Positions 1 to 49,772 of a stretch of 64,000 nt of DNA are shown piece by piece (the stretch's first letter is position 1; the number at the start of each line of letters is the position of its first letter). Origin of the DNA: an uncultured Verrucomicrobiota bacterium (GTDB lineage: Bacteria; Verrucomicrobiota; Kiritimatiellia; CAIQIC01; Lenti-01); NCBI GenBank assembly GCA_937872095.1, contig CALMNW010000075.1, forward strand, positions 1 through 64,000, read 5' to 3'. The position numbers and the translations under genes are program-made. The notes beneath the pieces were generated by a model. It ran no database searches and had not been told where the DNA came from. It was given only the letters and a program-made list of their open reading frames with translations.

Positions 1-45
1 CCCAAATGCCTCACCTCCTCATCACACGCTTTCGGACATTCCCAA

Positions 46-99
46 GTTTTTACGTTCTACGTAAAACCCGCCGAAAGTTTTTACGTAGCGTGGAAAAAT
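46..99. repeat. Two TTTTTCCACG/CGTAAAAAC-type palindromic repeats
   Basis: Two imperfect palindromes lie here. The first has arms GTTTTTACG and CGTAAAAC around a short loop at 46-67. The second has arms GTTTTTACG and CGTGGAAAAA at 77-99. They belong to the family seen again near 29.5, 38.2 and 58.8 kb. This copy lies downstream of the minus-strand gene that ends at 125, so it could act as a 3' hairpin. The short reading frame across it looks spurious. Confidence 0.7.
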
Positions 100-124
100 C
101 GCGGTTTCCGCGGTGGCGGAGGGA

Positions 125-658
125 TTATGATTCGGGGGGAGCGCCGGGAATGGCGATGGCGGCATGGGGCGGGCGGACGTCGAGCCGGGTGAGGGTTGCG
201 GCGTAGGCCCGCGCGAGCAGGTCCCGGTCGTCGGCCTTTTTCAGGCGGGCGATGCCGGCCTGGAAGAGGAGGTTGGCGCGCCGGGCGTCCCGGAGATCGT
301 GGACGGCGAGATCGATCATTTCGAGCCAGGGGCGGACTTCGTCGGGATGGGCGGCGGCGATTTTCTCGTATTCGGCGAGGGCTTCTTCCAGTTGCCCTTT
401 GGCGCGGCGGGACTGGGGAATGCCGTACATGGGCTGGGGCTTGTCGTAATACCGCTTGGGCCAGAACAGGCTCCCCATCGGTTCCGCCAACCCGCGGGCG
501 ATGGGACCCGCGGCGAAAACGGCCGCGACGAGAAAAAGGAAAAACCCGAGCAGCATCTGGGCGACGTCCCCGGCGCCGAGCAGGACGCCGATGCCCAGGG
601 ACAAGGCGACCAAGGCGGGCAGGAAATGCCGGACGAAGACGGCGAGAAAGGCGCGCAT
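125..658 (-). CDS. Membrane-anchored TPR-like protein of unknown function
   Basis: The 177-residue protein starts at the ATG at 658, 22 bases after the rmlB stop. Two hydrophobic segments span roughly residues 8-30 and 33-52. A soluble helical region follows (about residues 78-160) with a TPR-like pattern around 'GQLEEALAEYEKIAAAHPDE'. The likely topology is two membrane helices anchoring a helical repeat domain for protein contacts. It is the last gene of the minus-strand run with rmlB, rmlD and metF. A longer reading frame upstream overlaps rmlB in another frame and was rejected. I do not recognise a specific family, and a role in polysaccharide assembly would only be guilt by association. 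Confidence 0.7.
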   Translation of the reverse strand: MRAFLAVFVRHFLPALVALSLGIGVLLGAGDVAQMLLGFFLFLVAAVFAAGPIARGLAEPMGSLFWPKRYYDKPQPMYGIPQSRRAKGQLEEALAEYEKIAAAHPDEVRPWLEMIDLAVHDLRDARRANLLFQAGIARLKKADDRDLLARAYAATLTRLDVRPPHAAIAIPGAPPES

Positions 659-680
659 GTCCGTTTTCCAGCGCGGCGGC

Positions 681-1745
681 TCAGGCGTAGTGGGCGGCGA
701 TCCACTTCTGGTAGTCGCCGGAGCGCACCTGGGCGCACCATTCGGCGTTGCCCAGATACCAGTCGACGGTGCGCTCGAAGCCGGTGGCCCAGGTTTCGGC
801 GGGCTGCCAGCCAAGATCGCGCTCGATCTTGGAGCAGTCGATGGCGTAGCGGCGGTCGTGGCCGGGGCGGTCCTTGACGAAGGTGATCAGCGAGCGGCGC
901 GGCTGGCCGTTCGGCAGGGCCGGAGCCTTGGCGTCCACGAGATCGCAGATTTTTTCGACGACGCGGAGATTGGGGAGTTCGTTGCGGCCGCCGACGTTGT
1001 AGGTGGTGCCGAAAGCGGCCTGCTGCATGACGCGCCAGATGGCGGAGCAATGGTCGGTGACGAACAACCAGTCGCGCACGTTCAGGCCGTCGCCGTAGAC
1101 GGGCAGGGGCTTGCCTTCGAGGGCGTTCAGGATCATCAGGGGGATGAGCTTTTCGGGGAACTGGAAGGGACCGTAGTTGTTCGAGCAGTTGGAGAGGGTG
1201 GTGGGCAGCTTGTACGTCTCGTGGTAGGCGCGGACGAGATGGTCGCTGGACGCCTTCGACGCGGAATACGGGCTGTTGGGGGCGTAGGGGGTGTCTTCGG
1301 TGAAGAACCCGGAATCGCCGAGGGTGCCGAACACTTCGTCGGTGGAGACGTGGTGGAAGAGCTGGATCTGGCCGGCGTGCTCGCGGGCGGCCTGGAGGAG
1401 CACGTAGGTGCCGAAGATGTTGGTGCGGACGAATTCGTCGGGGGCGACGATGGAGCGGTCGACGTGGCTTTCGGCGGCGAAGTGGGCGATGGCGTCGATT
1501 TCGTATTTCTCGATGATCTCCTTCATCTTCGCGGCGTCGCAGATGTCGGCCTTGACGAAGACGTAGCGGTCGCCGACGCGTTTTTCGACGTCGAGGAGGG
1601 AGAGGGGGTTGCCGGCGTAGGTGAGCTTGTCGACGTTGACGATGCGCGCCGGGCCGTCCTGCTGTTCGAAAAGATGGCGGATGAAATTGACGCCGATGAA
1701 GCCGGCGCCGCCGGTGACCATGAGGTTGCGGAAGGTGCGGGACAT
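681..1745 (-). CDS. rmlB: dTDP-glucose 4,6-dehydratase
   Basis: This enzyme dehydrates dTDP-glucose to dTDP-4-keto-6-deoxyglucose, the second step of dTDP-L-rhamnose synthesis, in the cytoplasm. The 354-residue length is normal. The extended-SDR NAD-binding motif GGAGFIG lies near residue 12. The catalytic segment STDEVFG carries the Thr-Asp-Glu triad of the family, and YSASK supplies the Tyr and Lys. The ATG lies 5 bases after the rmlD stop, so the two are co-transcribed. Neither rmlA nor rmlC is visible in this window and they must lie elsewhere. The family assignment is secure. The sugar product could feed rhamnose or another 6-deoxyhexose. Confidence 0.95.
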
Positions 1746-1749
1746 GGGC

Positions 1750-2625
1750 TCAGCTCCTGACTTCGGCGAGGAGGGCGTCGCGGTAGCGCTCGACGTATTC
1801 CCCCAGATCTTCGCGCCAGTCTTTCATGAGGTTGAGATTGGCTTTCTTGAGGTTGGCGTTTTCGAGGATGGAGTTGGCGGGGCGGACGGTGGGGGTGGGA
1901 TAGTCGGCGGTGGTGCAGGGGCGGACTTCGCAGTCGAGTTTCATGAGGGCGATGAATTCCTTGGCGAAGTCGTACCAGGAGCAGTGGCCTTCGCCGGAGG
2001 CGTGGAAGAGGCCCGCCGCGTCGGCTTCGGCGACGGCGAGGATCTGGTGGGCGAGGCGGCGGGACCAGGTGGGCGTGCCGAACTGGTCGCTGACGACGCG
2101 CAGGCCCTTCTGGGGGTCGTTGACGGCGCGGCGCAGGATGGTTTTGAGGAAATTGTAGCCGTGGGCGCCGTAGAGCCAGGCGGTGCGCAAGATGGCGTGG
2201 CGCGGATCCTTTTCCTGGATCTCGCGCTCGCCGGCGAGCTTGCTCTTGCCGTAGACGCTGACGGGGTTGGGGGCGTCGGTCTCGACGTAGGGCTGCGGCA
2301 CGGCGCGCAAGCCGTCGAACACGTAGTCGGTGGAGACGTGGACGAGGAAGATGCCGTAGGCCTTGGCGCGCGAGGCGAGCAGGGCCGGGCCGTCGCGGTT
2401 GACGTGCCAGGATTTGGCGACGTCGCTCTCGGCGCGGTCGACGGCGGTGTAGGCGGCGCAGTTGACGAGCACGTCGGGCTTCCAGAGGTTGAGGACGCCG
2501 TCGACGCTGTCGGAATCGGTGATGTCGAGGTTGGGGAGGTCGAGGGCGAGGACTTCGTGTTTGGCGAACACTTCGCGGCAGTCCCAGCCGAGCTGGCCTT
2601 GGGCACCGGTGACGAGAATTTTCAT
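1750..2625 (-). CDS. rmlD: dTDP-4-dehydrorhamnose reductase
   Basis: This short-chain reductase makes dTDP-L-rhamnose from the 4-keto sugar. The 291-residue protein starts at the ATG at 2625, which overlaps the metF stop codon. The N-terminal nucleotide-binding motif is GAQGQLG (residues 7-13). STDYVFDG and YGKSK give the Ser/Thr and Tyr-Lys active-site signatures of the RmlD family. It is immediately followed by rmlB. A much longer frame extends upstream through metF but is only the shadow frame of that gene, and the family's length supports the internal start. Confidence 0.95.
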
Positions 2626-3533
2626 GGGGTGGCTCCTGTGTCGGGGGATCGGCGCCAGCGCGCGAGGCATTCGGCGAGGCGCGGATCCAAAATGGTCTTG
2701 GCTTGGTTGAGGATGTAGAGGTGGATGCCGGGCGCGCCGTGGGCGATCAGCCCGTCGATCTGGGCGACGAGCCACTCGATGCCGGCGCGGCGCGCGGCGG
2801 CGGGATCGGCCGTCTGGAGCGCGGCGCGCAGCGCGGCGGGGGCGGTGGCGCGGCTGAAGCCGAGGGCCCGGTCGAGCTGGGCGGCGGACGCGACGGGCAT
2901 CAGGCCGGGCAGGATGGGCGCCTGGATGCCGGCGGCCCGGGCGGCGTCGAGGAAGCGGAAGTAGACGTCGTTGTCGAAAAAGAGCTGGGTGTTGACGAAA
3001 TCGGCGCCGGCCGCGAGCTTTTCCAGGAGGTGGCGGAGATCGGTGGCGAGATCGGGCGCTTCGGGATGGGTTTCGGGATAGCCGGCGACGCCGCAACAGA
3101 TTTCAGGGTGGCGGGACTTGATGAGGGCGACGAGGTCGGAAGCGTGGGCCAGACCGTCGGGGGCGGGAACGAAGGTGGTTTCGCCGCGGGGCGGATCGCC
3201 GCGCAGCGCCATGACGTTGCGGATGCCGGCGGCGTGGATGCGGTCGATCTGCGCGACGAGATCGGCCCGCGAGGCGCCGACGCAGGTGAGGTGCGCGACG
3301 ACGGGGGTGAAGCCCATGCGCGCGAGCAGTTCCCAAGCGGCGAAGGAAAATTCCCGGGACGAGCCGCCGGCGCCGTACGTGCAGGTGACGAAATCGGGGC
3401 GGACGGGCCGCATGCGCTCGATGGATCCGCCGAGAATGCCGAAGCCAAGGGGGTCTTTGGGCGGATAGAATTCGAGGGAAAGCGTCGGCTGGCGCCGCGC
3501 TTCCAGAAGTTCCCGGATGGTCGACGGGGTCAT
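2622..3533 (-). CDS. metF: 5,10-methylenetetrahydrofolate reductase
   Basis: MetF reduces methylenetetrahydrofolate to 5-methyltetrahydrofolate, the methyl donor for methionine synthesis, using a TIM-barrel flavoprotein fold. The 303-residue protein begins at the ATG at 3533. Near the N-terminus it has the family segment 'LSLEFYPPKDP' containing the catalytic Glu. Further on are TYGAGGSS and the folate-site region 'VNTQLFFDND', both typical of MetF. Its stop overlaps the rmlD start by four bases, which places a one-carbon enzyme at the head of a dTDP-rhamnose operon. A TATGAT hexamer lies only about 10 bases upstream of the start, so the mRNA may have a very short leader. Confidence 0.94.
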   Translation of the reverse strand: MTPSTIRELLEARRQPTLSLEFYPPKDPLGFGILGGSIERMRPVRPDFVTCTYGAGGSSREFSFAAWELLARMGFTPVVAHLTCVGASRADLVAQIDRIHAAGIRNVMALRGDPPRGETTFVPAPDGLAHASDLVALIKSRHPEICCGVAGYPETHPEAPDLATDLRHLLEKLAAGADFVNTQLFFDNDVYFRFLDAARAAGIQAPILPGLMPVASAAQLDRALGFSRATAPAALRAALQTADPAAARRAGIEWLVAQIDGLIAHGAPGIHLYILNQAKTILDPRLAECLARWRRSPDTGATP

Positions 3534-3615
3534 AGGCGGGGCATCATAGCGAAAGCCCGGGGCGGACAGCACTCTTTTTTTGTCGCCGCCCCGCCGGAAA
3601 TTCCCGGCGGCGGGC

Positions 3616-11139: not shown

Positions 11140-13501
<2,362 letters not shown>

Positions 13502-43281: not shown

Positions 43282-45120
43282 ATGGCGGGCATGGTCTCCA
43301 AGGAAACGATCGACCAGATCCGCAACGCGTTGGACATCGCCGACGTCATCGGTTCCTATATCCAGATCAAGCGGACGGGGCACGTGGCCAAGGCCTTGTG
43401 CCCGTTCCACAAGGAGAAGACCCCTTCGTTCCACGTCAACCCGGCGCGCCAGGCGTTCCATTGCTTCGGCTGCGGCGCCGGCGGCGACGTGTTCAAGTTC
43501 GTGATGCTCTACGACCACGTCGATTTCCCGACGGCGCTGCGGATGCTCGCGTCGCGCGCGGGCATCGCGATCCAGATCGACGAGAATCGTTCCGGTACGA
43601 GGGAGGGGCCGGGCAAGGACGAAATCTTCGCCGCCAACGAGGACGCCGCCAAGCGCTACCAGAAGGAACTGCTCCAGAGTCCGGAAGCCGCAGGCGCGCG
43701 GGACTATCTGAAAAAACGTTCGCTGGACGTCGCCGCCTGCAAGGAGTGGGGCATCGGCTATTCGCCGGAAGGCTGGGGGTTTCTGTCCGACGCGGCCGGC
43801 CCGCGCAACGGGCCCCGGATGAAGGCGCTGGAAGCGGCGGGGCTGCTGTCGACCAACGAAAAGGGCAACCTCTACGACCGGTTCCGCGGCCGCGTCATGT
43901 TCACGATCCGCGACGAACTGGGCCGCGCGGTCGGCTTCAGCGGGCGGGTGCTGAAGGCGGACGACAAGGCCGGCGGCAAATACGTCAACACGCCCGAAAC
44001 GGCGGTGTTCCGGAAAAGCCGCATCCTGTTCGGGCTCGACAAGGCGAAGCGGGAAATCCTCGATGCGCGCCGGGCGCTGCTGGTCGAGGGGCAAATCGAC
44101 TGCATCCGCTGCCATCTGGGCGGATTCAAGAACGCGGTGGCCTCGCAGGGCACGGCGTTCACCTCCGAGCACGCGGCGCTGCTCAAGCGCTACGCGGACC
44201 ACGTCGTGGTGGTGCTGGACGCGGACGCGGCGGGCCAGAAGGCCGCGCTGCGCAGCGCCGAACTGCTCATCGCGGAAGGTTTGGCCGTCTCGCTCGCCGC
44301 GCTGCCGCCGGGCGAGGATCCCGATTCGCTGATCCTGAAAAAAGGTTCCGAGGCCTTCGCCGCCGTGCTGCAGGACGCCCAGACGCCGATGGGGTTCCTG
44401 CTCGGCCTGCTGCGGAAAAGCGAAAATCTCAGCACGCAGGAGGGCTTGCTGCGCGCCACGCGCGCGGCCCTCGACCTGGCCGCGCACGCGCAGGGCGCGG
44501 TGCAGACCGAACAGATGTTGCGCGAGGCCGCCGCCGGCCTCGGCGTGGGTTTCGACGCCTTGCGGCGCGATTTGAAAGCGGCGGTCCGCCAGAAGTTCCG
44601 TCCGGCGCCGCCCGTCGCGGAGCCGGCGCCTGACGCGCCGGCCGCGCATCCGCTGGACGAAGTGGAATTGGCGATGCTGCTCGCCGCCGGCGATCCGGAA
44701 TTGGCCGGTTTCGTGCGGCGCTGGCTGCCCTATGCCCTGATCGCCGATCCGGGCTGCCGGGCCATCATCCACGCGCTGGCGGAGGAAGAAGGCGATCTGA
44801 TGGCGGCGCTCGACGACGAAAGCGAGGAGTGCCAGGTCCTTGCCGCGCGGATCGTCAACGCTCCGCAGAAGGTGGTGGGGACGGAAGCGGATATGGGCGT
44901 CGCCAAGGCCGCCCAGGATCTGGTGCTCCGCATCTGGCAGCGGCAGCTCGACGCTCAGCGCGAACGGTTAAGCCGTCGGATGAAGGAACAAGAAGGCGCG
45001 GCGCGGCAGGAAACGATGCGGGAACTCGCGGAACTGTTGCTCGACCAGGGCAAGCTCAAGCGGGGCTGGGCGCAGGCGGAGCCGATCCTCGAAATTCGTT
45101 TGCAGCAATTTTTGGCATAG
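43282..45120 (+). CDS. dnaG: DNA primase
   Basis: The 612-residue primase has the CHC2 zinc ribbon (C40, H43, C61, C64 in 'CPFHKEKTPSF' and 'CFGCGAGGD'). The catalytic core has 'LLVEGQIDCI' and 'VVVLDADAAGQKA' of the Toprim fold. The C-terminal third is the helicase-binding region. Either ATG (43282 or 43291) fits. The last 28 codons are shifted in codon style, and a degenerate second copy lies 2 kb downstream at 47103-47189. It is the final gene of the efpL-NUDIX-cvpA operon. Confidence 0.96.
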   Translation: MAGMVSKETIDQIRNALDIADVIGSYIQIKRTGHVAKALCPFHKEKTPSFHVNPARQAFHCFGCGAGGDVFKFVMLYDHVDFPTALRMLASRAGIAIQIDENRSGTREGPGKDEIFAANEDAAKRYQKELLQSPEAAGARDYLKKRSLDVAACKEWGIGYSPEGWGFLSDAAGPRNGPRMKALEAAGLLSTNEKGNLYDRFRGRVMFTIRDELGRAVGFSGRVLKADDKAGGKYVNTPETAVFRKSRILFGLDKAKREILDARRALLVEGQIDCIRCHLGGFKNAVASQGTAFTSEHAALLKRYADHVVVVLDADAAGQKAALRSAELLIAEGLAVSLAALPPGEDPDSLILKKGSEAFAAVLQDAQTPMGFLLGLLRKSENLSTQEGLLRATRAALDLAAHAQGAVQTEQMLREAAAGLGVGFDALRRDLKAAVRQKFRPAPPVAEPAPDAPAAHPLDEVELAMLLAAGDPELAGFVRRWLPYALIADPGCRAIIHALAEEEGDLMAALDDESEECQVLAARIVNAPQKVVGTEADMGVAKAAQDLVLRIWQRQLDAQRERLSRRMKEQEGAARQETMRELAELLLDQGKLKRGWAQAEPILEIRLQQFLA

Positions 45121-45197
45121 CAATGTATTTTCCCGCAGGTGGCTGCTTGAAAGAACGGTTGCCGCAAGCAGTCGGGAATTGGCGTGGACGACAAGTG

Positions 45198-45224
45198 TTG
45201 ATTCTTGTATCCGCGCGCAATAAT
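45198..45224 (+). promoter_or_regulatory. Weak candidate promoter of the Sel1 gene
   Basis: TTGATT (45198-45203) and AATAAT (45219-45224) are 15 bases apart in an AT-richer 120-base gap. No Shine-Dalgarno precedes the ATG at 45241, which is 17 bases downstream of the -10. The whole gap belongs to the lower-GC segment. Confidence 0.3.
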
Positions 45225-45240
45225 TGCATAGTAAACGATT

Positions 45241-47085
45241 ATGAAATCTCGGCGGGCCTTGCTTGTATTGTTGGCGTGCTTTCTTTGCGAGGATTGCATT
45301 GCTGCGGTTCGCCTGAATGTCATATCCGATTCGGTTTCGGCAATTGAAACGGTTTTGGACGCAAGCCGCTTCATTGTCGTAAAACAGTTGGCGGAAGAAG
45401 GCGATCCCGAGGCGCAATGCCGTTTGGGGAGTCACTACGAAAAGGGAATTGGCACTTCGCCCGATCCAACCAACGCGGTTTACTGGTACCGACAATCGGC
45501 AAATCAAAATTATGCGGCTGCGCAAAACCACCTCGGACTTTGTTATAAAAAGGGGATTGGAGTTTGTGCGAATATCGATGAAGCGCTGAAGTGGTATCAA
45601 CTGGCCGCCGACCTTAACGATCCGTGCGCCCAAGCCAACTTGGGCGCGTGCTATCAAGACGGGATGGGTGTGGAGTTAAATCCCGAACGCGCCGTATTTT
45701 GGTATCGGAAATCCGCATCGCAAGGTAATTGCGCAGCGCAATACAATTTGGGTATTTGCTGTGAGAAAGCAATAGGCGTTGAATCCAATCTCACGGAAGC
45801 TATTCGATGGTATCGGCTGGCGGCGGCACAGGGCATGCCATGGGCGCAACTTGCCTTGGGGCTTTGTTATACCGAGCGAATCGAGCTGCAAGCAGAGCAA
45901 GCCGAAGGAGTCCATTGGCTTAGAAAAGCGGCGGAAAATGGGGAGGTCGAGGCCCAATACGCCTTGGCGTCTTGTCTTTCAAGTGGCAAGGGGACTTCCA
46001 AGGACGATCCCGAAGCCTATCGTTGGTTTTGCCAGGCGGCGGCCATGGGCCATTCAAATGCGGAATATGCGGTCGGCACGTATTTCGCGCGAGGTTTAGT
46101 GGTTCAATCTAATGCCAGCGAGGCGATTGTCTGGTTCAATCGAGCGGCGTTGCATGGCAGCATTCCCGCTTGCTATGCATTGGGTCAGCATTACATGATC
46201 GGCATTGGCACGGCCCCGGATTTAAAGATGGCGAAAAAGTGTTATGAGAAGGGGGCACTGGCTGGCAGCGATCCAGCTCAACTCGCATTGGGAAATTGCT
46301 ATTATGACGGCCAAGGAGCCGAGAAAGATTTTGCCCAGGCGGTTGTTTGGTTTAAATTGGCTGCCGATCAAGGCAATCCAGATGCCATGTACAATTTGGG
46401 TGTTTGTTATGAATTGGGACATGGAGTGACCCAAAACTATGACGAGGCGTTGCGTCAATATAGAATGGCCAGCGAGAACGGTCAGATATCTGCGACCGAG
46501 AAAATTGGCGAGTTTTATCAACATGGCCGGAGCGTGCCCCTGGATTTTCGGCTTGCAATGCAGTGGCACCAAAAAGCGGCCACAAATGGCTGTATAGCTG
46601 CCCAATACAATTTGGGATGGATGCATGAAAACGGCAAGGGATGCGTGCCGGATATCTCCGCGGCAATACCGTGGTACATGCAGGCTGCTAGCAATGGGAT
46701 GGCGCAGGCGCAGAACAAAATCGGCTTATTTTATGTTACGGGCAATGGGCTTCCTATAAATCCGACCGAAGGCATCAAGTGGTTTCAATTGGCCGTAGAA
46801 CAAGGAGAACCCTATGCGGAAAGCAACTTGGGCTACAGCTACGAAACGGGCAACGGCGTGGAACGGGATATGCAAAAGGCGTTGGCATTATACCGTTTAG
46901 CGGCGGCTCGGGGTTGTCCTGATGCCATGATTAATCTTCGAAACTGTTATGCCCATGGCTGCGGCGTAAAAAAGGACGTCGTTCAAGCTCAAGAATGGCA
47001 TCAAAAGGCGATGAAAGCTTTTGCAACGCCCAATTCGGTTTGGGTTGCCGGACAGCCATTAGGGCTCGCACATCCATTGCCTTGA
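45241..47085 (+). CDS. Secreted Sel1-repeat (TPR-like) protein, probable island gene
   Basis: The 614-residue protein has a signal peptide (about residues 1-22). At least 15 tandem Sel1 repeats of about 36 residues follow, each with 'A..LG..Y..G.GV..D...A..WY..AA' spacing. Sel1 repeats form a solenoid that binds other proteins, and are found in envelope and host-interaction factors. The gene is clearly lower in G+C than its neighbours and uses A/T-ending codons freely. It lies between two copies of the dnaG 3' end, so it looks acquired. No other island gene is visible. Confidence 0.85.
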   Translation: MKSRRALLVLLACFLCEDCIAAVRLNVISDSVSAIETVLDASRFIVVKQLAEEGDPEAQCRLGSHYEKGIGTSPDPTNAVYWYRQSANQNYAAAQNHLGLCYKKGIGVCANIDEALKWYQLAADLNDPCAQANLGACYQDGMGVELNPERAVFWYRKSASQGNCAAQYNLGICCEKAIGVESNLTEAIRWYRLAAAQGMPWAQLALGLCYTERIELQAEQAEGVHWLRKAAENGEVEAQYALASCLSSGKGTSKDDPEAYRWFCQAAAMGHSNAEYAVGTYFARGLVVQSNASEAIVWFNRAALHGSIPACYALGQHYMIGIGTAPDLKMAKKCYEKGALAGSDPAQLALGNCYYDGQGAEKDFAQAVVWFKLAADQGNPDAMYNLGVCYELGHGVTQNYDEALRQYRMASENGQISATEKIGEFYQHGRSVPLDFRLAMQWHQKAATNGCIAAQYNLGWMHENGKGCVPDISAAIPWYMQAASNGMAQAQNKIGLFYVTGNGLPINPTEGIKWFQLAVEQGEPYAESNLGYSYETGNGVERDMQKALALYRLAAARGCPDAMINLRNCYAHGCGVKKDVVQAQEWHQKAMKAFATPNSVWVAGQPLGLAHPLP

Positions 47086-47102
47086 CATTATCGGCGCCAT
47101 AG

Positions 47103-47189
47103 CTGCTCGATCTGGGCAAACTGAAGCTCGGTTGGGAGCGGGCGCACCCGATCCTCGATCTCCATTTGCACAAGTTCGCCGAGGGCTAG
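47103..47189 (+). pseudogene. Degenerate second copy of the dnaG 3' end
   Basis: Twenty-eight codons in frame from 47103 to a TAG at 47187 align with the end of DnaG. LLDLGKLKLGWERAHPIL here matches LLDQGKLKRGWAQAEPIL there, with about three-quarters of the bases identical over 75 positions by hand alignment. The copy has GC-rich codons like the surrounding genes and ends where hrpB ends on the opposite strand. It probably is the original dnaG 3' end, displaced by the Sel1 segment. Confidence 0.75.
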
Positions 47190-49714
47190 CGCCACTCGTG
47201 CTTGGGGTATTTCCGGCGCAGTTCCTGCTTGATGCGCGGATAATGGTCGCGCCAGAAGCCGGGAAGATCCTTCGTGATCTGCACGGGCCGCTGGCTGGGG
47301 GCCAGGATATGGATCACCAGCGGCACGCGGCCTGCGGCGATGGCGGGGAGGAATTCGACGCCGAACAGTTCCTGGATGCGCGCGGACACGTACGGTTCGG
47401 CCGCATCGGCGTACTGCACCTTGACGCTGCGGCCGTTGGCGAGCGCGACGCGTTCGGGCGCGTGCTTTTCCACGAGCGCGATCTGCGCGGGCGAGAGCAG
47501 CGCTTTCACCGCGTGGAGCACCGGCCGGTCCTTGACGTCTTTGTAGGAAACCGCGCCGTGGCAGATCTGCTGGACCAGCAGTTCGCGCGCCGCATCGTCG
47601 TAGGCGGGCAGTTCCCAGTCGGGGCAGGTTTTGGCCAGCAGGTTCGCGCGCGCGATCCATTGGTCCACGGCCCGGTCCCATTCCTTGAGAACGCACTCGC
47701 CGGCCAGGACGGCCTTGGCCAGCAGACGCGCGGATTCTTCTGCCGGCGGCGGGTCGAGGGGGCGCGAATCGAGGGCCAAATCGCGGAAGACGATTTCGCG
47801 GCGGGCGACGGCGCGCTTGGCGGCGGCGTCCCAATCGACGGCGATTCGCTCGGAAAAATCGTCGGGGAACAGCTCGCGGAGCCATTCCTCGCGGATGGCG
47901 GTGGCCTGCGTGAGCAGGACGTTGACTTCGCCGTCGCCGCGGCCGATTTCGTGGATTTCGTTGGCGACGAGCAGGGGGGCTTCGTCGGCGACGGATTCGC
48001 GGGCGAGTTCGCCGCGCCGCTTGTGGACGAGATCGCAGCGCAGCGTACCGCGGTCGAGGCGGTGCGCGACCTGGTCGGAAAATCCCGCGAGGACGCACTT
48101 GGCGATTTCCTCGTCCTCGGGCGGCGCGGATTCGATCGGCAGCCGCTGCGATTCGGCGATGCGCAGGAAATGGTCCCAGAGCGGGCCGACCTGGCGCGCG
48201 GAGGCGGCGTGGATGCCGAGGCGGCGGCAGCGGCCGAGGTCGAATCCGTTCTGGCGCGCGTAGTTCCAGGCGCGCATGAGCACGAACAGGTCCGAGCCGG
48301 ACGTTCCCAGCAGATCGCGCCGCTGTTCGGCGGCGGGTTTTCCCGCGTTGCGCACGAGCAGGGAGCGGCCTTGCGCGATGGCGGCGATGAGCGCGACGGG
48401 TTTCACGGCGCCGCGTTCGCCGGCGGCGAGCAGCATGCGGGCGTAGCGCGGATGGACGGGGAACGACAGCATGCGCCGGCCCAGCGGGGTGGGCGCGCCG
48501 TCGCCGGCGAGGGCGCCGAGATCGCGCAGGAGGGTCAGCGCGCGTTCCAGCGCCTTGGGCTCGGGCGGCTCCAGCCACGGATAGGCCGCGACGTCGCGCA
48601 CGCCCAGCGCCTTGAGTGTCAGCAGGATTTCCGACGGATCGACGCGTTTGATTTCGGGCAGGTCGTGTCCGGCGCGGCCGGCGTGCTCCTGCTCCGTCCA
48701 AAGGCGGATGGCGTGGCCGGGGGCGGTGCGGCCGGCGCGGCCGGAGCGCTGGTCGGCGGAAGCGCGCGAGATGTTTTCGATCAACAGCGTGTTGATGCCG
48801 CGCCAGGGATCGAAGCGGGCGACGCGCGCGAGGCCGGCGTCGATCACGAGCCGGATGCCGTCGATGGTGAGCGAGGTTTCGGCGACGTTGGTGGCCACGA
48901 CGATTTTCTTGCGGTCGTAGCGCGCGACGGCGGCGTCCTGGTCGTTGGGCGGCAATTCGCCGTGCAGGGGCAGGAGCAGCGCGCCTTTGGCGGCGTCCGT
49001 CCGGCGCAGGGCGTCGATCGTGCGCTGGATTTCGTAGGCGCCGGGCATGAAGATGAGCGCGTCGCCGGGATTCTTCCCTTCGTGCGCGGCGCGTTCGTAG
49101 GCTTCCGCGGCGGCGTCCCACGGCGTGTCGCGGTCGGGATGCAGGGGCTTCGCGAGATGTTCGATCTCGACGGGGAAGGCGCGGCCTTCGGAATGGACGA
49201 GTTCGCAGGGTTCCAGATACGGCTGGAGCAGGCGCGTGTCGAGCGTGGCCGACATGACGATCAGCAGGAGATCCGGCCGCGTGGTTTTCTGGAGGCGCAG
49301 CGCCTGGGCGAGGGTGACGTCGCCGTAGACGTGGCGTTCGTGGAATTCGTCGAACAGGATCGCGGAGACGCCCGGCAGGTCGGGCTGCGAGAGCATCTGG
49401 CGCAGGAGGATGCCTTCGGTCTCGAAATGGATGCGCGTGGCGGGGCCGCAGACGGATTCGAAGCGGATTTGGTAGCCGACTTCGCCGCCGAGCTTCGCGC
49501 CGCGTTCTTCGGCGACGCGCTTGGCCAGCAGGCGCGTGGCGAGGCGCCGCGGCTGGAGCACGACGGCCTTGCCCGCGCCCAGCGCGCCCAGATCCAGCAG
49601 CATCTGCGGCACCTGCGTGGATTTTCCCGAACCGGTGGGCGCGGTCAGGATGATCCGCCGCGAGCGCTTCAGCGCGGCGGCCAGATCGTTCCGGATGGCG
49701 TGGATGGGCAACAT
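47186..49714 (-). CDS. hrpB: ATP-dependent RNA helicase HrpB
   Basis: The 842-residue DEAH-box helicase has 'TAPTGSGKSTQVPQ' (Walker A), 'LFDEFHERHV' (DEFH in place of DEAH, as in HrpB), 'VMSATLDTR' and 'SGRAGRTAPGHAIRLW'. The C-terminal HrpB domain ends with 'FWRDHYPRIKQELRRKYPKH'. The start is the ATG at 49714. A GTG nine codons upstream is possible. It is convergent with the dnaG remnant, overlapping it by three bases. Confidence 0.95.
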   Translation of the reverse strand: MLPIHAIRNDLAAALKRSRRIILTAPTGSGKSTQVPQMLLDLGALGAGKAVVLQPRRLATRLLAKRVAEERGAKLGGEVGYQIRFESVCGPATRIHFETEGILLRQMLSQPDLPGVSAILFDEFHERHVYGDVTLAQALRLQKTTRPDLLLIVMSATLDTRLLQPYLEPCELVHSEGRAFPVEIEHLAKPLHPDRDTPWDAAAEAYERAAHEGKNPGDALIFMPGAYEIQRTIDALRRTDAAKGALLLPLHGELPPNDQDAAVARYDRKKIVVATNVAETSLTIDGIRLVIDAGLARVARFDPWRGINTLLIENISRASADQRSGRAGRTAPGHAIRLWTEQEHAGRAGHDLPEIKRVDPSEILLTLKALGVRDVAAYPWLEPPEPKALERALTLLRDLGALAGDGAPTPLGRRMLSFPVHPRYARMLLAAGERGAVKPVALIAAIAQGRSLLVRNAGKPAAEQRRDLLGTSGSDLFVLMRAWNYARQNGFDLGRCRRLGIHAASARQVGPLWDHFLRIAESQRLPIESAPPEDEEIAKCVLAGFSDQVAHRLDRGTLRCDLVHKRRGELARESVADEAPLLVANEIHEIGRGDGEVNVLLTQATAIREEWLRELFPDDFSERIAVDWDAAAKRAVARREIVFRDLALDSRPLDPPPAEESARLLAKAVLAGECVLKEWDRAVDQWIARANLLAKTCPDWELPAYDDAARELLVQQICHGAVSYKDVKDRPVLHAVKALLSPAQIALVEKHAPERVALANGRSVKVQYADAAEPYVSARIQELFGVEFLPAIAAGRVPLVIHILAPSQRPVQITKDLPGFWRDHYPRIKQELRRKYPKHEWR

Positions 49715-49772
49715 GGAGAAGGCAAGATAAGGTAAAAGCACGGAACAGCCAACCGCCGTTTTCGGCGGGACG

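Follow-up and report, generated by a model that had tools for sequence, protein, structure and literature searches.

The locus studied here raises the question of how the 3′ end of dnaG, an essential gene, came to lie on both sides of a low-GC gene for a Sel1-repeat protein. The window, that is the whole stretch of DNA analysed (64 kb), belongs to a contig of 169,685 bp, and the features needed for the argument are the following.

43282–45120, forward strand: complete primase gene dnaG, whose end is the upstream tail (Pfam Zn_ribbon_DnaG, DNAG_N, Toprim)
45037–45120, forward strand: upstream copy, comprising the stop of the present dnaG and the 27 codons before it (repeat comparison)
45082–45092, forward strand (47148–47158 in the other copy): CCGATCCTCGA, the longest exact match of the two copies, 11 bp
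45093–45120, forward strand: A/T-rich final stretch of the present dnaG (36% GC), which still reads as the DnaG C-terminus EIRLQQFLA
45121–47102, no strand: inserted low-GC segment of 1,982 nt, bounded by the 6-bp direct repeat CATAGC
45130–45178, forward strand: imperfect hairpin within the insert, just 3′ of the dnaG stop (folding against shuffled sequences)
45241–47085, forward strand: gene for a Sel1-repeat protein of 614 aa with 12 Sel1 repeats (Pfam) and an apparent signal peptide (by eye)
47103–47189, forward strand: downstream copy, the displaced native dnaG 3′ end, last 28 codons and stop (repeat and congener comparison)
47186–49741, reverse strand: hrpB helicase (Pfam), whose stop and that of the displaced dnaG end overlap (the dnaG and hrpB stops do likewise in the congener G006)

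The repeated dnaG end and the insert

The recurrence of the dnaG end on either side of the Sel1 gene, first pointed out in a first-pass annotation of this DNA, is well above background. Positions 45038–45104 and 47104–47170 form a gapless direct repeat identical at 52 of 67 positions (78%), whereas the runner-up gapless match to the downstream copy in the 64-kb window reaches 35/67, and a search of the genome itself returned just these two places and no third. Leaving aside obvious tandem or paralogous arrays, this is the strongest repeat on the contig, and the only one with a low-GC gene between its copies. The downstream copy is in frame, with a CTG start, and translates as LLDLGKLKLGWERAHPILDLHLHKFAEG before the stop TAG at 47187–47189. 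It abuts hrpB as the annotation had it, this stop overlapping the hrpB stop on the opposite strand. The A/T-richness claimed for the final codons of the present dnaG is also borne out, with a GC3 of 0.33 in the last nine codons versus 0.89 in the preceding 27. The resulting C-terminus, EIRLQQFLA, may be compared with EIYLQRLDG in G012, but has no close match among the sampled relatives.

The segment between the copies, described earlier as about 2 kb of lower GC holding one gene, has 51.7% GC versus 65.5% for the window. The Sel1 gene, its only convincing gene, has a GC3 of 0.53 versus 0.87 for dnaG. As had been remarked, no integrase is visible: we found no recombinase in the insert, and the six integrase-family genes of the genome are all on contigs other than that of dnaG. 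Nor does the insert contain a transposase or notable terminal inverted repeats, the only hint of a transposon being the motif CATAGC at both edges (45116–45121 and 47098–47103). A run of six has a probability of about 0.002 by chance at a fixed position pair; since several positions would have drawn remark, this repeat may be due to chance. The hairpin at 45130–45178 is more stable than shuffled sequences as DNA (z −3.2) and not as RNA (z −0.6), and could be a putative terminator or a recombination fold. Neither RNA families nor tRNA targets were found.

The empty site in related genomes

The alignment of dnaG–hrpB regions proposed in the first-pass annotation gave a clear result. Five congeners (G001, G002, G004, G005, and G006) have an uninterrupted dnaG in the order efp-nudix-cvpA-dnaG-hrpB, with 0–230 nt from the end of dnaG to the end of hrpB and nothing inserted there. 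Neither a tandem dnaG end nor an insert at the dnaG–hrpB joint was found in any congener. In G006, the dnaG and hrpB stops overlap in TAGCGCCACTCGTGCTTGGG, and the same sequence occurs here at 47187, where it ends the downstream copy. Because it shares this overlapping-stop joint, the downstream copy is the native end of the gene, still in its original position.

Other members of the family have a wider spacing between dnaG and hrpB, 3.3 kb in G009 and 6.5 kb in G013, with no repeated dnaG end. The gap in G009, which belongs to another genus of the family, lies on contig C90 and contains two genes, one of them quinolinate-synthase-like (by eye), with a short tandem repeat array on the hrpB side. 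The contents of the dnaG–hrpB joint thus vary between genera.

Differences between the two copies

Of the 45 positions to the left of CCGATCCTCGA, 33 are identical between the two copies, and 32–40 between congeners. Over these positions the downstream copy matches G005 at 39/45 and G006 at 33/45. Diagnostic sites are G001/G005-like in 9 of 11 cases in the downstream copy and in 5 of 10 in the upstream copy. Trees put the upstream copy next to G006 and the downstream one next to G005, and forcing the two copies together costs 8.9–10.5 lnL (first 56 nt). That the dnaG end had simply been duplicated not long ago was considered and rejected, the copies differing as those of two species do and not being sisters on the trees. 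Compared with G005, the downstream copy differs at 5 first, 2 second, and 9 third codon positions, a coding-type pattern indicating that the downstream copy has not been non-coding for long and has a mostly coding history. As the repeat has just 84 nt, its own phylogenetic signal is weak; single lines are only suggestive, and it is their combination that points to the presence of dnaG ends from two different species.

Ancestry of dnaG and its neighbours

In trees of the body and of the 3′ part of dnaG, this genome falls with G006 (bootstrap 99 and 90, respectively). The neighbouring efp/nudix/cvpA and hrpB genes favour a grouping with G001/G002/G005, and dnaK favours G001/G002 (bootstrap 81), the support being weak to moderate in each case; rpoB gave no match in this assembly as a further marker for trees. 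Over 43611–45092, the G006 grouping is ahead by 25.7 lnL (AU p 0.003 versus the best alternative), and over the flanks and dnaK it is behind by 17.5 lnL (KH p 0.03; AU 0.076, which is borderline). In a per-site likelihood profile, the best segment starts at 43435, and none of 2000 permutations, by site or by block, was as strong. This switch adjoins the conserved zinc-finger part of dnaG, where the congeners are about 86–96% alike. From about 43435 onward, dnaG is probably a xenologous allele allied to that of G006.

On its right side, this segment may stop at the insert or extend into hrpB by as much as 140 nt (47326), and in the latter case the downstream copy would be part of the import. 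The topology does not give the direction of the exchange, and G006 may itself have been the receiving genome, in an exchange that had nothing to do with the insert; transfer from a G006-like donor into this genome is favoured by the adjacency of the insert.

Proposed origin of the structure

As the most economical account, we propose, at a probability of about 50%, that the insert, the empty site in congeners, the two non-identical dnaG ends, and the ancestry switch at about 43.4 kb go back to DNA from a G006-like donor that underwent homologous recombination in dnaG and was joined illegitimately at its far end, that is, homology-facilitated illegitimate recombination (HFIR). Linear DNA from a relative of G006, carrying its dnaG followed by the low-GC Sel1 gene, would have been taken up. 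The left end would have entered by a homologous crossover in the well-conserved first part of dnaG, while the right end, beyond the Sel1 gene, would have been joined without homology to the resident dnaG at a point 28 codons short of the stop. As an outcome, most of dnaG would have been swapped for that of the donor, the Sel1 gene gained, and the cell's own last 28 codons left as a dead fragment beside hrpB. Since the donor dnaG was complete, the essential gene would have stayed functional, and no integrase would be needed. Selection would explain why the surviving junction is a harmless one, with dnaG complete and hrpB untouched. The right joint (47102/47103) has 0–1 bp in common with the equivalent position of the congeners, native bases having been lost. 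A ComEC-family gene, a candidate route for taking up DNA, is present in 7/7 genomes of the genus.

Several points count against this import, among them the weak signal of the repeat, the borderline flank test, the possible extension of the segment into hrpB, the possible role of G006 as recipient, and the scant microhomology. In addition, a G006-like donor does not account for the nine A/T-rich codons at the end of dnaG, though these may have come from the donor as they are or record an earlier event within it, and no donor genome with dnaG followed by this Sel1 gene was found. The event looks like a one-off import and not a new kind of mobile element, a known kind of event in a new instance. 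The structure is a readable fossil of gene entry beside an essential gene without an integrase, in which the leftover dnaG tail marks the right joint and the ancestry switch suggests the left recombination point. Leftover tails of this kind could help to detect further imports, among them swapped housekeeping alleles that escape the usual island finders.

The first-pass annotation had described an insertion into the 3′ end of a gene, with the end supplied anew by the incoming DNA, as integrases do. Its core stands: foreign DNA lies at the dnaG 3′ end, the working end has been replaced, and the native end has been displaced to 47.2 kb. The comparison with integrases has become weaker, because there is no recombinase, the exact stretch is 11 bp long, and the foreign affinity extends beyond the tail into most of dnaG. 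Given the missing recombinase, the short core, and the changed history of dnaG, a homologous left and an illegitimate right joint fit better than an att crossover, and HFIR is to be preferred to an integrase event like that of e14/icd. In such a site-specific or single-crossover (Campbell) integration, a circle with a variant dnaG end would have crossed over in the tail, perhaps at CCGATCCTCGA, so that dnaG to the right of this core and the downstream copy to its left would both be foreign. This would agree with the abrupt composition change right after the 11-mer (GC3 from 0.89 to 0.33) and with a downstream copy that is G005-like and not G006-like to the left of the core. It has a precedent in e14, with an icd duplicate of 165 bp and 12 differences (PMC11148124), and in an E. 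coli HFIR assay most lacZ-end recombinants were single-crossover duplications (PMC3240628). Nevertheless, we consider it possible but rather unlikely, since the integrase-family genes are on other contigs, 11 exact bp in ends otherwise 75% alike offer little for RecA, no further copy of the structure occurs in the 446 kb sampled, and the changed dnaG ancestry from 43.4 kb would go unexplained. Very improbable, in our view, is a related scheme in which the Sel1 segment is a recombinase-less one-gene cassette, moved in trans, that targets the dnaG end and brings a spare tail of its own, by which the essential gene would be kept intact.

The two copies could also stem from a tandem duplication that long ago doubled the final 28 codons in this lineage and was later split by the Sel1 segment, with CATAGC as the target duplication, the copies having diverged since. 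Deleting 45121–47102 does set the downstream copy directly behind the dnaG stop, and the exact CATAGC at the two edges is what such a target duplication would leave. We judge this improbable: the copies, with 33/45 to the left of the core, are as far apart as the dnaG ends of two species and resist being made sisters (8.9–10.5 lnL), the downstream copy is still coding-like, the tandem end is present in no congener, and the insert shows no transposase or notable terminal inverted repeats. Least probable of all is an assembly chimera of two congeners from one metagenome. The assembly, of 102 contigs, is probably a metagenome bin, and dnaG has exact 31-mers in common with congeners (79 with G006), so that the left switch could be artificial. 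A chimera could explain only that switch, as the right joint, between the Sel1 flank and the dnaG tail, offers no long identical word to an assembler; this, together with the position of the locus well within its contig, means that the structure needs a real molecule.

Comparison with known systems

HFIR, with one homologous and one illegitimate end, is known from Acinetobacter, Streptococcus, Pseudomonas stutzeri, and E. coli (PMC3240628), and was proposed for displaced effector 3′ ends in Vibrio (PMC5361080). As in those cases, one end at this locus would lie in shared homology, the other would be joined to unrelated sequence, and a foreign gene would be gained without a recombinase. The differences are that HFIR is deduced here from a mosaic, that the 0–1 bp of visible microhomology compares with the usual 3–10 bp at such joints, and that the gene would have been exchanged rather than deleted.

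The arrangement of the prophage e14 in icd of E. coli K-12 (PMC11148124, PMC6379469) shares with dnaG a variant 3′ end, a short remnant of the old end beyond the insertion (icdC), and a gene that is uninterrupted in relatives and displaced at its end in the carrier. However, e14 has an integrase and a near-identical repeat, whereas here there is no integrase and the ends are 75–78% identical over 67–84 nt; near-identical att repeats would be expected of the e14/icd type, and the repeat here (78% over 67 nt, exact run of 11 bp) could have decayed. In type VI secretion (T6SS) effector and Rhs loci with displaced 3′ ends (PMC5361080), an incoming module anchored by upstream homology likewise pushes the old end downstream, but the genes there are modular toxins with immunity genes, in contrast to the housekeeping primase and the Sel1 gene of this locus.

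Search for a donor and for further cases

The Sel1 gene is the only member of its family found in this genome. Its relatives are at most 49% identical in the class (346 genomes) and at most 43% identical at the 11 loci found in a GTDB scan, and IMG/VR holds none. A donor carrying dnaG followed by this Sel1 gene is absent from these three collections. A phage or plasmid origin of the Sel1 gene was rejected, its relatives being distant only (<60%) and absent from IMG/VR.

A scan for the same structure at other 3′ ends of this genome, as proposed earlier, gave no second copy with a low-GC middle in the 446 kb sampled (13% of the genome), and the sequence immediately 3′ of dnaG has no other copy in the genome. 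On the basis of these 446 kb, we rejected an element recurring in the genome; the spaced repeats on contigs C4 and C8 are not displaced gene ends, but intergenic repeats or repeats sited in a small-gene array. Positions 1–3600 of G000:C8 hold a low-GC run of small ORFs on one strand, three of which share a repeat of 30–60 nt at their 3′ ends. This run recalls a cassette array, with repeats that show no convincing attC fold. On G000:C4, a 70-nt repeat (TTTTTGCCGCAGAGAACGCCGAGGG...) at 12072–12141 and 12718–12787, 91% identical, is probably a dispersed repeat.
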